64,000 nt of DNA from positions 1 to 64,000 of the forward strand of contig CACGNN010000001.1 in assembly GCA_902574355.1 (NCBI GenBank). Direction: 5' to 3'. The notes beneath the pieces are model-generated. The model was given only the letters and a program-made list of their open reading frames with translations, was not told the origin of the DNA and did no database searches. Positions 10,148-14,613 of this stretch are shown piece after piece. The translations under genes were made by a program, and so were the position numbers. The stretch is from an uncultured SAR86 cluster bacterium. Its GTDB lineage: Bacteria > Pseudomonadota > Gammaproteobacteria > Magnimaribacterales > Magnimaribacteraceae. Each line of letters starts with the position of its first letter. Positions within the stretch are counted from its first letter, which is position 1.

Positions 10148-11977
10148 CTAATTGACAGTTTTCTCTTCATTTATCCATTCATCTATTAAATCATCTAGGA
10201 TAAATAAGGGGACTATGCCTTGATCTAAAACTATTGAATGAAATTTTCTGAGATCAAATTTTGCACCCAGTTCTTTCATGGCCTTATCTCTTAAATCTAA
10301 GATTTTTATCATACCCATCTTGTAACTGGTTGCTTGTCCAGGCCAAACAATATATCTTTCAATCTCAACCCTCACCTCAGTATCAGACATACCGGTTACT
10401 TTTTTCATATACTCCATAGCTTTTTCCCTAGTCCATTTTTTGTAATGTAAGCCAGTATCTACTACCAATCTGTTAGCTCTAAACATTTCACTTTGAAGCA
10501 CTCCCAATTCATCATAGAGACTTTTAGTCATCCCTACTTCAACTCCTAATTGTTCAGCATAAAGGGCCCAGCCCTCAGTATAGGCTGAAGTTCTGTATCC
10601 AAGACGTCTATACAAAGTTAGTTCATCATTTTCCAAATTCAATGCTATTTGAAAGTGATGTCCGGGTACGGCCTCATGAAATGTCAATGTTCTCATTCCA
10701 AACTTTGGTGTTTGCTTTATGTCATATAAATTTGCATAGAAGACCCCAGGTCGCGAACCATCCAAACTGGGTGACTGATAATAACCCCCTGCAGCGGTCT
10801 TTTCTGAGTACTCAGGCACAGCCCTTACTTCTACCGGGCTTTCTGGAAAATTGAAGAAGTAAGGCCTTACATCTTGTTCTGCATCTTTAACCATCTGATT
10901 ATAATCTTTTATAACTATCTCTTTTCTATCAGGCGTATCTTCATATAAAAATTCTGGATTTTCATTAAGATCACTCATCATCTCTCCGATTGGCTTATTA
11001 ACTTCATAACCAAGCTCTAAGAAAATTTCTTTCATCCTGTTTCCAATTCTTTCTACTTCTTGCAAGCCAATTTCATGAACTTCAGCTGCGGAATAGTCGG
11101 TTGTTGTATAAGTTCTCAGCCTGAGAGCATAAAAATCATCACCATCAGGCAAGGACCAGACACCATGATATTGATTTGCATATTTATAGTTCTCAATCAT
11201 AAAACTGAGAATTGATTGATAGCCCGGCTTAACATCATCTTTGATAGCTCCACTTAATTCATTTATTAGCTCAGCTCTTTCGCCTGCAACTATTCCCATA
11301 TCATCAATTTTTTTTATAAATATTTGCATTAAGGGGTTGTTGGAGTCTTCGTAGCCAATTAGCTCCTCAAGCTGTCCAATTACATGGTCCATAACAAATT
11401 TAGGAAGAAAAATTTCTTGCTCTTTTTGTGCTTTTAACCAGCTTAGATTTTCAAGCAGAACTTCATCAAACATTTCAACCCTATCTATATAGTTACGTGC
11501 ATCATTTAAACTTTTCATAGGATGAGTGTCAGTCATAAACTCTACTAAGTTCAAATGATTACCACTTATTTGATTAAATGGATACGAGTGATATTTAAAG
11601 CGCTCATATGCTTCAATATCGTTTTGTGTGTCAAATATAGCTATCTTTTGAGTTATCTTTTGACTTTTGCTAAGTTTGCTTTCGTCAAAACCTTCCAAAA
11701 TATTTAAACGATTTAGATTGTGTTTGTAATCCTCATGTCTTTTATCAGAGGTTTGTACTGACAGCCTTTCGTTATGTCTAAAGATAAAACCAAAATTATC
11801 AAACACACCAAGATTAGTCATATATTCGGGTGAGTCAGTTATTTTCTTGACTAGATCTTTTGCTAAATAGTGATCTATCGAAACAGGTTTCTGCGAATAT
11901 AGGTTCATCAGGTACAAACAAGAACTTATAAAAATGACTGTTAATAAAATTCCCGAACTTAGGAGTATTTTTTTCAT
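10148..11977 (-). CDS. DUF885-family exported metallopeptidase-like protein
   Basis: A 609-residue protein of the DUF885 family. The zinc-peptidase-like motif HEAVPGHH lies near residue 440, followed about 30 residues later by TEGWALYAEQLG, a family hallmark with a likely third ligand Glu. The N-terminus has one hydrophobic segment ending in Ile-Ser-Ser-Cys, so it is either a lipoprotein (weak lipobox) or a signal-anchored periplasmic protein. DUF885 proteins are widespread and few are characterised; peptidase or amidase action is inferred from the zinc motif. Length is normal for the family. The gene is monocistronic, convergent with the MerC-like gene and divergent from the NIPSNAP-like gene. 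Confidence 0.8.
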   Translation of the reverse strand: MKKILLSSGILLTVIFISSCLYLMNLYSQKPVSIDHYLAKDLVKKITDSPEYMTNLGVFDNFGFIFRHNERLSVQTSDKRHEDYKHNLNRLNILEGFDESKLSKSQKITQKIAIFDTQNDIEAYERFKYHSYPFNQISGNHLNLVEFMTDTHPMKSLNDARNYIDRVEMFDEVLLENLSWLKAQKEQEIFLPKFVMDHVIGQLEELIGYEDSNNPLMQIFIKKIDDMGIVAGERAELINELSGAIKDDVKPGYQSILSFMIENYKYANQYHGVWSLPDGDDFYALRLRTYTTTDYSAAEVHEIGLQEVERIGNRMKEIFLELGYEVNKPIGEMMSDLNENPEFLYEDTPDRKEIVIKDYNQMVKDAEQDVRPYFFNFPESPVEVRAVPEYSEKTAAGGYYQSPSLDGSRPGVFYANLYDIKQTPKFGMRTLTFHEAVPGHHFQIALNLENDELTLYRRLGYRTSAYTEGWALYAEQLGVEVGMTKSLYDELGVLQSEMFRANRLVVDTGLHYKKWTREKAMEYMKKVTGMSDTEVRVEIERYIVWPGQATSYKMGMIKILDLRDKAMKELGAKFDLRKFHSIVLDQGIVPLFILDDLIDEWINEEKTVN

Positions 11978-12129
11978 AAATTTACCAAATGGTTTTTAAC
12001 CAATATGCTTCTATAAGCACTAATCTGTTATTTTAATAACGATTATAAAATATTTTTCATTTTATGAAGAAACCCGATGACTATTGTTAGAATAAAATCT
12101 AGCCTTTGTTTATATAACTGGAGAAAATA

Positions 12130-12525
12130 ATGAAAATATCAGCAATTGCAGTGCTAATTTTGTCATTCAATTTAAAGTCTGCTGTCTACGAGATTAGAGA
12201 TTACACAATTGAAGAAGAGTTTTTTGAAGCATACGTATATTGGGCCGAGAATTACTTCATGCCCTATGGAATGGAAAGAATCGAAATAGTAGATTTTTGG
12301 GTGAGTAGGGGAGATGAGGCTATTGTGGAAGGCACTAATCCTATAGTATCTCCTAACGGTCAGCCAAATGTAACCTGGGTTACAAAGTACGACAGCCGAG
12401 AAGACAGAGATAAATTTTTTGCTAATTTAGATGTTGATCCAGAATGGGAAGAAGTTTGGTCCAAGCACCCCAATCCAGATGCATATATTCACTCAAATGC
12501 GAGATTCTTTAGTTCTATAAAGTAG
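12130..12525 (+). CDS. Exported NIPSNAP-like (dimeric alpha-beta barrel) protein
   Basis: A 131-residue protein. A short signal peptide (about 17 residues) is followed by VYEIRDYTIEE, the typical first strand of NIPSNAP and related dimeric alpha-beta barrel proteins. Later segments include VTWVTKYDSREDRDKFF, the usual second-half strand and helix. The family has no settled enzymatic role; many members are small ligand-binding or oxygenase-like proteins. A good GGAG ribosome-binding site precedes the ATG. An exported version suggests action in the periplasm (inference). Another exported alpha-beta barrel protein, ABM-SnoaL, lies 1.2 kb downstream. Confidence 0.65.
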   Translation: MKISAIAVLILSFNLKSAVYEIRDYTIEEEFFEAYVYWAENYFMPYGMERIEIVDFWVSRGDEAIVEGTNPIVSPNGQPNVTWVTKYDSREDRDKFFANLDVDPEWEEVWSKHPNPDAYIHSNARFFSSIK

Positions 12526-12589
12526 GTCCTGAAGGAGTTTATACAGAAATAAAACATAGTCATATAGATTTCAATGATGCCAAAAAAGT

Positions 12590-12618
12590 TTGTACATTGA
12601 TTATATTTATACTATAAT
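12590..12618 (+). promoter_or_regulatory. Sigma-70 promoter for the YRGV leader/small protein unit
   Basis: TTGTAC at 12590-12595 and TATAAT at 12613-12618 are separated by exactly 17 bases, close to the sigma-70 consensus. The predicted transcription start is about 12625. This leaves a leader of about 185 bases before the small protein's start codon. Confidence 0.75.
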
Positions 12619-12624
12619 GCAGGC

Positions 12625-12810
12625 ACGTTCATCTTAATCTGCAGGTTAAGACGGAAGTAGGAAGATAGGAAAACCTCTTTCTTTGATCAAAGAAAGGCAA
12701 GCAAGTACCGAAAGGGAACGAGACCGAATATCTACCGAAGGAACGCGTTGAGAAGGGTGTATATCGAAAGATATATGTACGAAATCGATACGAAAACTGG
12801 AGGGCACGAT
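12625..12810 (+). ncRNA. Structured 5' leader RNA ahead of the YRGV small protein
   Basis: About 185 bases without a convincing reading frame lie between a strong promoter and the start of a tiny gene. Three hairpins are visible: a 7-bp stem with a TGCA loop at 12633-12650, an 8-bp stem with a GATC loop at 12677-12696, and an 8-bp stem with a GAAA tetraloop at 12758-12777. Between them are repeated CCGAA and GGAAC motifs, and three GGA triplets sit at about 12653-12669, which could bind a CsrA-type protein. The composition is purine-rich and unlike the neighbouring genes. It may be a cis-regulatory leader or part of a longer functional RNA ending at the terminator near 13019. I match it to no known RNA family. 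Confidence 0.55.
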
Positions 12811-12975
12811 ATGACTACTATATACAGAGGTGTTGAAGTTGCTCCTTTAAACAATGCAGCAGGAAGCGAAACACCTGCTAACACTGTTTACAGAGGCGTT
12901 CAGCAAAAAATCGTAGAAAGTAAGTCAACTCAGCCAGGTAAAGGAATTTACCGCGGCGTCGAAAGAGTTGCTTAA
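12811..12975 (+). CDS. 54-residue YRGV-repeat small protein
   Basis: A very short protein with three copies of a Tyr-Arg-Gly-Val motif, at about residues 5-8, 28-31 and 47-50, joined by linkers rich in Ala, Pro, Ser and Thr. The YRG motif recalls DUF4278 small proteins, but I cannot confirm membership. I chose the ATG at 12811 because GGAGG lies eight bases upstream; a longer frame from 12748 would run through the leader hairpin region. There is no signal peptide and no membrane segment. The gene has its own promoter and a strong terminator, which suggests a standalone, well-expressed unit. Function unknown; it may bind RNA or a partner protein through the repeated motif (speculation). Confidence 0.7.
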   Translation: MTTIYRGVEVAPLNNAAGSETPANTVYRGVQQKIVESKSTQPGKGIYRGVERVA

Positions 12976-12990
12976 TTTTTATTAAGAAGA

Positions 12991-13019
12991 AAAGGGAGGC
13001 AATAGCCTCCCTTTTTTTT
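12991..13019 (+). terminator. Rho-independent terminator after the YRGV gene
   Basis: A GC-rich stem, AAAGGGAGGC at 12991-13000 with GCCTCCC at 13005-13011, closes an AATA loop and is followed by eight T residues. It lies 15 bases after the stop codon and ends a transcript of about 395 bases. Confidence 0.9.
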
Positions 13020-13067
13020 AGTATGATTAGTCTAAATGCGATCATATTCAATAAAGATAATTAGCTG

Positions 13068-13697
13068 ATGAAATGCATACTCTGCAATCATCCTGATACT
13101 CAATTATTTTATAGAGAGAATCAAAAAAAATATTATAAGTGTCCTAAATGCTCTCTTATTTTCCTGGATAGCAAAAATTACTTATCAAACAAAGATGAGC
13201 GAATTAGATATGAGCAGCATCAAAACTTTGTTGATGATGAGAAATATATACAATTCCTTTCAAAGCTCTTCATTCCACTGAAAGAAAGATTATCTAATCA
13301 TAAAGAGGGGTTGGATTTTGGATGCGGACCTGGGCCAGCACTGGCAAAAATGTTTAATGACGCGGGTTATATTATGGATGTATATGATCCTTATTTTTTC
13401 CCGAATGAAACTATTTTTTCAAAACCCTATGACTTTATATCTTGCACAGAAGTTTTAGAGCATGTCTTTGATCCCGCAAAAGTAATCTTTGATTTAAATA
13501 AAATATTAAAAAAAGATGGATGGTTAGGAATCATGACTAATTTTTATGATGAAAATATAGATTTCGCCTCTTGGTATTATCGCAAAGACCCAACTCATGT
13601 AGCCTTTTACTCTAAAGAAACTCTCACGAATATTGCATCTAACATGTCTTGGACCTTAGAATTTCCAGATAAGAATATTGTTTTGTTTAAAAAATAA
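13068..13697 (+). CDS. Class I SAM-dependent methyltransferase with N-terminal zinc ribbon
   Basis: A 209-residue cytoplasmic protein. Residues 3-27 carry two Cys-x-x-Cys pairs (CILC and CPKC), a small zinc ribbon. A SAM-binding glycine motif LDFGCGPGP follows near residue 84, then a CTEVLEHVFDP acidic loop typical of Methyltransf_23 proteins. A DPTHVAFYSKETL segment near residue 180 matches the same group. Similar proteins occur in sugar, lipid and peptide modification, so the substrate is open. It follows the strong terminator at 13019 and lies 40 bases ahead of the ABM-SnoaL gene. Confidence 0.75.
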   Translation: MKCILCNHPDTQLFYRENQKKYYKCPKCSLIFLDSKNYLSNKDERIRYEQHQNFVDDEKYIQFLSKLFIPLKERLSNHKEGLDFGCGPGPALAKMFNDAGYIMDVYDPYFFPNETIFSKPYDFISCTEVLEHVFDPAKVIFDLNKILKKDGWLGIMTNFYDENIDFASWYYRKDPTHVAFYSKETLTNIASNMSWTLEFPDKNIVLFKK

Positions 13698-13737
13698 TTA
13701 TGTTTGAATCAATCATCCGTTTATATAGGAGAAATAA

Positions 13738-14613
13738 ATGAAAAAGTTTTTATTGGTAATAAGTATGATTGCCCCACTGACAATGATTTTCCCAATGCAT
13801 CATGAAGGGGTAAAAGGAGACAATCCTTTTCTTCTTATTGCAAGAATTCAGGTTAAACCTGGAAAGGAAAATGAATATTTAGAGATAGCAGATACCGTAG
13901 ATAATGCGGTACAGGAAGCTGAACCTGGCATGTTGTTTCATAACTTTGATTCAGACCCTTTGAATCCATTGAAATTTACCTGGAGTGAAGTTTATGAAAA
14001 TAGTGAAGCTTTATTATTTCATCTTAATGCTCCTTATATTCCAGAATATGTAGGTGCGCATGACAGATTGGCAGATAGTTTTGAAATAGAAATTTACGGT
14101 AATATTTCCAAAGAGGCCTTTGAAGCTGTAACAGCTCTCGGGTTTCCATTCAAACACTTTAAAACAACTAGAGTTGGCTATACCAGAGATAATATTCTTA
14201 CCAATAAGAGAAAAGAAAATATTGGTAAAGCCCAAGAATTTTTAGATACGGCATTTTCTAACCCAGGTAAAGCAAGATCACTTCTCCATGAGAATTTTTC
14301 TTTCGAGTTTATGGGAATATGCTCTTTATGTACAAAAGCAGATACAGATAGTTTTTTTAATGAGTTTCTTCCTGAAGTAGGACGTCTAATACCAGAAGGA
14401 ATAGCTCTTGAGGTAGTCGACACGATTGGAGATAGTGATAGTGTTGTTTTAAGGGTTTCTGGAAAAGCTCAAGGAATTAACGGAACTTATAATAATAATT
14501 ATGCTATGGTTTATAAGTTTGCTGATGGAAAAATTATTAGTTTGAATGAGTACCACAGTGATCTTCTGGCAGAAACCAGGCTATATAAAAAACAAGTTAT
14601 ACCAACTAATTAA
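13738..14613 (+). CDS. Exported two-domain protein: ABM-like domain plus SnoaL/NTF2-like domain
   Basis: A 291-residue protein with an N-terminal hydrophobic signal-like segment (about 20 residues). Residues 30-125 resemble the antibiotic biosynthesis monooxygenase (ABM) alpha-beta barrel: an LLIARIQVKPGKENEYL strand and helix, then an FTWSEVYENSEAL segment. Residues 160-285 resemble a SnoaL/ketosteroid-isomerase NTF2 fold: a helical start, a FEFMG strand, and closing NNYAMVYKFADGKI and NEYHSDLL segments. The combination in one exported chain is unusual. Two Cys at about residues 194 and 197 could be redox active or bind metal. A GGAG site precedes the ATG. The VOC gene follows after nine bases, so the two probably act together. 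Function unknown. Confidence 0.65.
   Translation: MKKFLLVISMIAPLTMIFPMHHEGVKGDNPFLLIARIQVKPGKENEYLEIADTVDNAVQEAEPGMLFHNFDSDPLNPLKFTWSEVYENSEALLFHLNAPYIPEYVGAHDRLADSFEIEIYGNISKEAFEAVTALGFPFKHFKTTRVGYTRDNILTNKRKENIGKAQEFLDTAFSNPGKARSLLHENFSFEFMGICSLCTKADTDSFFNEFLPEVGRLIPEGIALEVVDTIGDSDSVVLRVSGKAQGINGTYNNNYAMVYKFADGKIISLNEYHSDLLAETRLYKKQVIPTN

Follow-up and report, generated by a model that had tools for sequence, protein, structure and literature searches.

Introduction

In cyanobacteria, glutamine riboswitches are described as associated mainly with DUF4278 proteins, whose expression is switched on upon binding (PMC6316151), and the pairing of glutamine riboswitch and DUF4278 is also reported in PMC6698751. 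The protein IF17 inhibits glutamine synthetase (GS), its DUF4278-like part being dispensable for inhibition (PMC6316151). A 2022 phage paper, which refers to "cyanobacteria and other marine bacteria", places such switches in SAR11 and OM43 phages (PMC9004378). SAR86 is described as being among the most abundant surface-ocean groups (PMC11582366). A full-text term search of the literature returned nothing joining a glutamine riboswitch with SAR86, and among the titles listed on SAR86 and riboswitches none concerned glutamine. Likewise, none of the titles listed dealt with a nested riboswitch domain, and the word "nested" is absent from the available part of a paper on tandem glutamine riboswitches (PMC9481103); Ames and Breaker 2011, Klahn 2018 or their supplements may mention the insert described below.

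Results

The window, i.e. the whole stretch of DNA analysed, comprises 64,000 nucleotides of a contig from an uncultured SAR86 cluster bacterium. Positions 12590-13019 form a complete small transcription unit, in which a promoter, a leader of approximately 186 nt, a 54-codon open reading frame (ORF) and a strong terminator follow each other (Table 1). A first-pass annotation, made from the letters alone, had described a near-consensus promoter, a 54-residue protein with three YRGV motifs, a strong terminator and a leader longer than a gene of 54 codons needs. All four observations were borne out, and the nested insert explains much of the excess length.

Table 1. Features of the transcription unit and its leader (window coordinates)
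Feature	Position	Strand	Basis
Promoter: TGTACA (12591-12596), 16-nt spacer, TATAAT (12613-12618)	12591-12618	+	10/12 consensus matches
Leader	about 12625-12810	+	
Glutamine-I riboswitch aptamer (RF01739), 73-nt stretch for 6 nt at P3	12624-12749	+	43.3 bits
Aptamer P1	12626-12630 with 12741-12745	+	helix coordinates from the enforced structure
Aptamer hairpin P2	12632-12651	+	four outer pairs standard in 76/76 distinct relatives, compensatory types
Aptamer P3, extended by AGAUA/UAUCU, holding the nested domain	12660-12736	+	compensatory variants
Nested-domain core: GAAAACCU - stem A - GNNAGCAAGUA - stem B - GAACGAGACCGA	12669-12727	+	covariance model R1, 71.4 bits, E 2.5e-14 (the window sequence, as L001, is itself part of the model)
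Stem A of the nested domain	12677-12696	+	both-side changes in 5/6 pairs counted
Stem B of the nested domain, AGUA/GAA at base, GAAA loop in the window	12705-12719	+	covariation
P4/P5 element beside P1: CGU/ACG, inner hairpin P5 (12760-12775), conserved internal loop	12746-12792	+	covariation
Shine-Dalgarno GGAGG	12799-12803	+	sequence; invariant in leader alignments (one of the two selected for leaders carrying GGAGG)
ORF, 54-aa basic YRG-repeat protein, probably of DUF4278 kind	12811-12975	+	three YRGV motifs
Intrinsic terminator: hairpin about 12990-13015, then T tract	12985-13020	+	-23.1 kcal/mol, z -6.1

Promoter and terminator

A promoter scan was uninformative on its own, with 5 sites seen against 12.6 expected. 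A TATAAT-like box (at most one mismatch) lay no more than 22 nt 5' of the aptamer in 32 of 33 distinct SAR86 units, including that of the window, and in 16% (1014/6200) of random upstream windows from the same loci. Terminator-like hairpins stood 3' of the ORF in 29 of the 32 SAR86 units with enough sequence, the exceptions being L056, L108 and L109, compared to 5 of 595 random stretches. The ORF listing starts the frame at an upstream TTG. The genes flanking the ORF are NIPSNAP-like and methyltransferase genes, not nitrogen genes.

The leader contains a glutamine-I aptamer

RF01739 (glutamine-I, glnA) was the sole gathering-level Rfam match in the window, where it occurred in one copy (43.3 bits, gathering score 35, E 3.9e-6 for the whole window). 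The alignment was complete at both ends, with 73 nt replacing 6 consensus positions at P3. In a stricter genome search the same copy reached only 26.9 bits (12624-12701), below the cut-off, and this lower score presumably comes from not spanning the insert. Consensus alignment recovered the P1/P2/P3 three-way junction with its AGUA/GAA, and P2 and P3 covaried in 76 relatives; compensatory variants of P3 among these 76 distinct parsed aptamers included AGAUA/UAUCU, AAAC/GUUU and GAC/GUC. P1 is invariant and therefore silent in covariation. In place of the short P3 hairpin of a standard RF01739 member the window aptamer has the insert, and in this it departs from the family.

Judged from these features, the core of the leader is a glutamine-I riboswitch, with glutamine binding predicted. 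The first-pass annotation had proposed an unknown cis-regulator, to be given up if the leader matched a known RNA family. For the core, which matches RF01739, that proposal falls; it stands for the nested domain of approximately 60 nt and for the P4/P5 element, both of which are conserved, covary and match no other Rfam family. A glutamine-II identity was ruled out, since the window gave no match to RF01704 at E up to 1; one viral leader scored 17.4 against this family, whose gathering score is 33. A tandem riboswitch of two known aptamer classes was also rejected, as the window has one RF01739 match and the insert matches no other Rfam family.

A nested three-way junction inside P3

The leader runs from a prolonged P3 through GAAAACCU, hairpin A, GNNAGCAAGUA, hairpin B and GAACGAGACCGA back into P3. 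The insert is thus ordered as a three-way junction with a second AGUA/GAA, and it copies the plan of the aptamer, not its sequence. We take AGUA/GAA to be a loop-E (sarcin-ricin) signature.

Covariation was scored on an alignment of 51 of the 64 distinct cores, from which 13 near-duplicates had been left out and in which three visibly misaligned rows (L138, L160, L168) were retained. Stems A and B showed standard pairs in 92.3% of cells (72.2% when shuffled) and a covariation score of 0.462, compared to 0.140 for shuffles and at most 0.170 with the partner slid; for related sequences the shuffle counts are not probabilities, and the slid controls are the better guide. Stem B variants comprised CC/GG, GG/CC, GC/GC and AG/CU, and both stems varied freely in length. 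Covariation shows the nested three-way junction to be a separately folded domain. Its junction strands GAAAACC, AGCAAGUA and GAACGAGACCGA are near-invariant; the search patterns contained parts of them, and the SAR86 set found through Rfam is the freer test of this invariance.

Besides RF01739, cmscan scans of the window and its relatives, some at gathering level only, found no Rfam family in the insert (a snoRNA match in relatives was at chance level, E 7.6). No stand-alone insert RNA was found: all 143 pattern occurrences, some of them places counted twice (139 by full parse), fall in glutamine aptamers. Unparsed occurrences either ended at contig edges (L114, L136, L174) or had a variant 5' strand (L183), and two matches in IMG/VR (L158, L159) were rejected as chance. 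None of 120 stretches with short aptamers carried the insert. The search patterns were derived from the insert itself, so that distant forms may be missed. Several viral leaders (L176, L184, L194, L201, L112, L116, L117) have a much longer stem B with GGGTCAATA as a common inner sequence, which may be an additional docking element.

These results also account for the smaller motifs of the first-pass annotation. The hairpin CCGAAAGG, noted for its GAAA tetraloop, is a real stem (stem B), but the GAAA loop is not conserved. The repeated CCGAA is present and has a mixed origin, partly the 3' part of the aptamer (12735 on) and partly GACCGAA of the insert. The GGA motifs of the leader are parts of conserved junctions and of the Shine-Dalgarno sequence, and the idea of CsrA binding found no support in the sequence.

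P4/P5, the start region and folding energetics

The P4/P5 element was paired in 98.2% of cells across 37 distinct sequences, with a covariation score of 0.507 (0.177 shuffled, at most 0.093 slid). P4 begins one base after P1 (12745/12746), stops 6 bases 5' of GGAGG, and covaries as CGU/ACG, CUA/UAG, CAU/AUG and CUU/AAG; the element had no other Rfam match in the window or its relatives. Twenty-two distinct SAR86 leaders, which represent three families of the order, could be aligned over the whole length, with a mean column identity of 79%. Conservation and covariation, the check put forward at the outset for this leader, are therefore both present.

Folding of single sequences was less informative. 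The window leader folded no better than shuffles (z -0.82; aptamer alone 0.0, insert alone 0.1), and the terminator was the only window element that did better than shuffles singly. The leader hairpins read from the single sequence at first pass thus gain their support from covariation in relatives, the single-sequence reading itself being no evidence. For the window, the energy model puts the covariation-supported structure at -27.1 kcal/mol and the predicted optimum at -38.4 kcal/mol, a deficit of 11 kcal/mol in energies that leave out tertiary contacts and ligand. In the RNAalifold consensus of the 22 leaders the 5' P1 strand paired elsewhere, and in free folding of 40 leaders the P1 strands paired with each other at a mean probability of approximately 0.10; P1 would therefore need help, for example from a ligand. 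In the window, GAUAU of the start region lay mostly in pairs when folding was free, and enforcing the covariation-supported structure left it open. With P1 enforced, the start region was slightly freer in 26 of 40 leaders (mean 0.45 vs. 0.41).

Other routes to control of the start region fared as follows. Masking of the start codon by the 3' strand of P3 failed as a general mechanism, as cognate pairing was no better than permuted pairing (p 0.89, 41 distinct types); such masking may apply within SAR86 alone. A decoy P1, in which GAACG of the insert would compete with the true P1 strand as free foldings had suggested, is disfavoured, since leaders of the L160 and L168 types read GAACAGAG. A candidate anti-Shine-Dalgarno, CCUC, lies beyond the reach of covariation because both sides are invariant. 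No terminator was found in the leader, and the sole terminator-like site in 11500-14500 lies 3' of the ORF; control is therefore probably translational.

The insert is associated with YRG genes

Insert-bearing leaders from all sources were followed by a YRG ORF in 83 of 83 readable distinct cases, with 4 more cut off. Among the matches listed, at least 159 distinct short aptamers yielded 150 readable cases, of which 24 had a YRG ORF and 126 did not, with 9 cut off. All 24 were in viral contigs, and a few are probably due to chance. In these counts the leaders are related by descent, and only the last copy of tandem aptamers was scored for its downstream gene. Retrieval by peptide similarity (L032-L039) was the sole source of no insert case and of 2 short cases. 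In the first alignment, a YRG ORF followed all 22 distinct SAR86 leaders, three of which (L032, L034, L035) had been retrieved by peptide. Short viral aptamers preceding peptides with 2-3 YRG motifs and a different make-up were seen in L209, L230, L241, L242, L252, L265, L270, L282, L283, L308, L311, L317 and L318, so YRG genes also occur without the insert.

The window peptide was 94-100% identical in four SAR86 records. The 85 distinct peptides compared measured 37-55 aa (in a few, a contig end or a late start had shortened the reading) and had a pI of 9.45-10.56; (Y/C)RG motifs numbered three in 73 and two in 12. Against DUF4278 (PF14105) the window peptide scored 18.1, below the Pfam gathering score of 25.3, which 5 of 8 relatives checked did pass, and 22 of 23 YRG proteins (alignment A3) matched at E up to 0.1 (best 4e-8). 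The PF14105 genome search did not find the window peptide at E up to 1. By its sequence and that of its relatives, it is a 54-aa YRG protein that is probably of the DUF4278 kind. AlphaFold2 returned three loosely linked beta turns, one per YRG, without a globule (mean pLDDT 69.8, pTM 0.20), and a search of the PDB with the peptide profile gave no relative at E up to 1.

Distribution in SAR86 and in viral contigs

The covariance model of the insert found it in 42 of 203 SAR86-order genomes, one copy each. The exact pattern occurred in 39 of the 203 and in 7 of 22 genera, with no match for a reversed-pattern control. At E up to 0.01, 78 of 151 relatives had an RF01739 match. Large searches under strict filters recovered the family from 4 of 369 genomes sampled across the class, namely three of SAR86 and G486, and from 1 of 398 sampled across the phylum, the window's own genome. 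G486, a gammaproteobacterium outside SAR86 (1.1 Mb), has glutamine-I riboswitches before GltB-like (L151, identified by eye) and Fer4_20/GltD-like (L154) genes.

Insert patterns matched 41, 43 (2 by chance) and 77 stretches in IMG/VR. The P4/P5 pattern matched 24 stretches there, each with an aptamer on its 5' side and a YRG ORF on its 3' side. Of the IMG/VR stretches examined, 85 carried the insert core, 81 of these in a fully parsed aptamer, and 43 of the 76 distinct parsed aptamers were viral only. Comparison of three viral contigs with phages showed that one is clearly T4-like by sequence: L134 has capsid-region genes about 70-72% identical to those of Melnitz, Mosig and HTVC008M. L117 holds a ribonucleotide reductase region nearest to phages C48C1 and Melnitz, and L125 matched widely conserved reductase genes. 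Searches of 50,697 cultured-phage records gave nothing related to the L119 peptide (E up to 0.1) or the L119 leader (E up to 1); the window unit had no DNA match in cultured phages, and the L135 unit had only short ones covering at most 12% of the query. The insert had no significant match in the parts of Melnitz (91,548/141,548 bases) and Mosig (50,000/141,461) searched (best 13.5 bits, E 0.61).

Short aptamers and nitrogen genes in SAR86

SAR86 also carries short, often tandem glutamine-I copies, which precede GS (L003 and others; L010, L073), GltB (L016, L028, L079) and Gcw_chp followed by Amt (L002, L075), with a PII gene further downstream of L078. These genes were identified by Pfam on the first 100 residues, one example each, and the GSI/GSII split was made by eye. 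In this clade, nitrogen-metabolism genes are thus found downstream of short copies, not of the window's own. A nitrogen role for the window unit is likely by analogy, because short copies precede GS, GltB, Amt and PII genes and because of the DUF4278 partnership in cyanobacteria. The host-less environmental glnA RNAs of 2010 may have their explanation in a riboswitch-run nitrogen regulon of SAR86.

The GlnD/GlnE-type domain PF08335 was kept in 31 of 35 genomes of the window's family (f1) and 8 of 9 of f2, and was missing in 9/9 genomes of f3 and 8/8 of f4. Of the 17 f3 and f4 genomes, 16 (all but G057) had a glutamine riboswitch according to RF01739 or the insert model, as did several f1 and f2 genomes that keep PF08335. 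Replacement of the protein glutamine sensor by the riboswitch in f3 and f4 is only a hint. In the window's own family a protein sensor may act besides the riboswitch, since PF08335 is mostly kept there.

Two further arrangements were observed. Tandem aptamers precede tiny proteins of the types MTKYEEAR...DNPFYP or ...FFPYYL (L064-L067, L070-L072, L275, L322), of which the one examined had no Pfam match; the MTKYEEAR-type proteins of viral L275 and L322 carry a YRG motif. In L068 and L069, a glutamine riboswitch precedes a DUF4177-like protein of 71-74 aa (24.0 bits for L069, cut-off 25).

Discussion

Taken together, sequence features and analogy with cyanobacteria suggest that the unit is probably switched on by glutamine at the level of translation and that its product is a small regulator of nitrogen assimilation; the nested domain would serve as a second input or a scaffold. 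Transcription would start at the first bases of the riboswitch, as read from the sequence. Plentiful glutamine would then bind the aptamer and stabilise P1-P2-P3, as inferred from the family, and this would open translation of the YRG/DUF4278 protein, an ON response proposed by analogy to cyanobacterial DUF4278 genes. The small, very basic, bead-like peptide probably binds and dampens GS or another nitrogen-assimilation enzyme, like IF17; its reading as a GS inhibitor is weakened because the DUF4278-like part of IF17 is reported as dispensable (PMC6316151). The nested junction in P3 would either sense a second signal or prop up the aptamer. We lean slightly towards a second input rather than a prop, as the junction strands are near-invariant while the insert stems and P3 vary freely. 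Tentatively, the insert can be read as a second aptamer of similar plan (three-way junction, third helix with a loop-E-like base) and of a kind not described so far, nested in the glutamine aptamer and reading a second nitrogen or carbon signal.

With similar caution, the insert may be regarded as a rigid peripheral prop that stabilises a weak glutamine aptamer and has no ligand of its own. P3, on which it sits, is described as projecting sideways in glutamine-I with no equivalent in glutamine-II, and the affinity of the glutamine aptamer as only millimolar (PMC6698751); the free variation in the lengths of stems A and B fits a prop as well. Such a role leaves the near-invariance of the junction strands and the restriction of the insert to YRG genes without a ready explanation; 120/120 stretches with short aptamers lack the insert. 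It is somewhat doubtful that P4/P5, not the insert, is the switch, stacking on P1 without a linker and presenting the Shine-Dalgarno sequence only when P1 forms. The place of P4 between P1 and GGAGG and its covariation accord with this, but the element is missing in viral L125, L130, L135, L138, L144 and L178, which have aptamer, insert and YRG gene and only 33-39 nt before the start codon.

We consider it unlikely that the YRG protein binds the nested domain in an autoregulatory loop, in which glutamine would turn translation on and the product would turn it off or hold it on. Binding of the RNA by its own protein was one of the options raised in the first-pass annotation, and the pairing of insert and YRG genes lends it some circumstantial weight. 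The peptides are strongly basic, and the insert is found only before YRG ORFs (83/83, against 24/150 for short aptamers among the matches listed); common descent of a single cassette would, however, give the same association, some viral YRG genes follow aptamers without the insert, and no RNA-binding fold was seen in the AlphaFold2 model. That the leader is a decayed, horizontally acquired relic and no riboswitch in this host is highly improbable: the distribution among SAR86-order genomes, some of them incomplete, is patchy, yet the sequence is near-invariant, with compensatory changes and a conserved promoter box and terminator.

Three features take the locus beyond a textbook glutamine-I riboswitch, namely the SAR86 host, the conserved nested domain in P3 and the restriction of this domain to one gene type. 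With copies before nitrogen genes, SAR86 is a likely home for host-less glutamine riboswitches. Among riboswitches, the nested domain would represent a new architecture, and a new aptamer class if it binds a ligand; were it indeed a second aptamer, one RNA would compute nitrogen status for a regulator common to SAR86 and marine viruses. Since the nested domain also occurs in viral contigs, viruses may be using the same module to handle the nitrogen signals of their hosts.

Comparison with known systems

The leader shares with glutamine-I (RF01739) the consensus strands, the P1-P2-P3 order, AGUA/GAA at P3 and a gathering-level score, and differs in its gammaproteobacterial host, in the nested three-way junction in place of the P3 loop and in the downstream P4/P5. 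Glutamine-II (Downstream-peptide, RF01704) likewise precedes small DUF4278 proteins, in marine picocyanobacteria (PMC6316151), but its pseudoknot architecture is its own. An upstream glutamine riboswitch and a small basic DUF4278-like protein are also described for gifB/IF17 of Synechocystis and PMM1846 of Prochlorococcus (PMC6316151); here the protein has 54 aa with three YRG repeats, its effect on GS is predicted by analogy only and, judging from length alone, it would lack the C-terminal part of IF17. Tandem glutamine-I riboswitches, as presented in PMC9481103, similarly place several sensor-like domains in one leader, with copies side by side, whereas here the domains are nested and the insert is not a second RF01739 match. 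The riboswitch of the methylophage Melnitz, a T4-like marine phage, likewise has a glutamine-I aptamer, but it is described as a short aptamer beside tmRNA (PMC9004378) and has no insert in the stretches searched.
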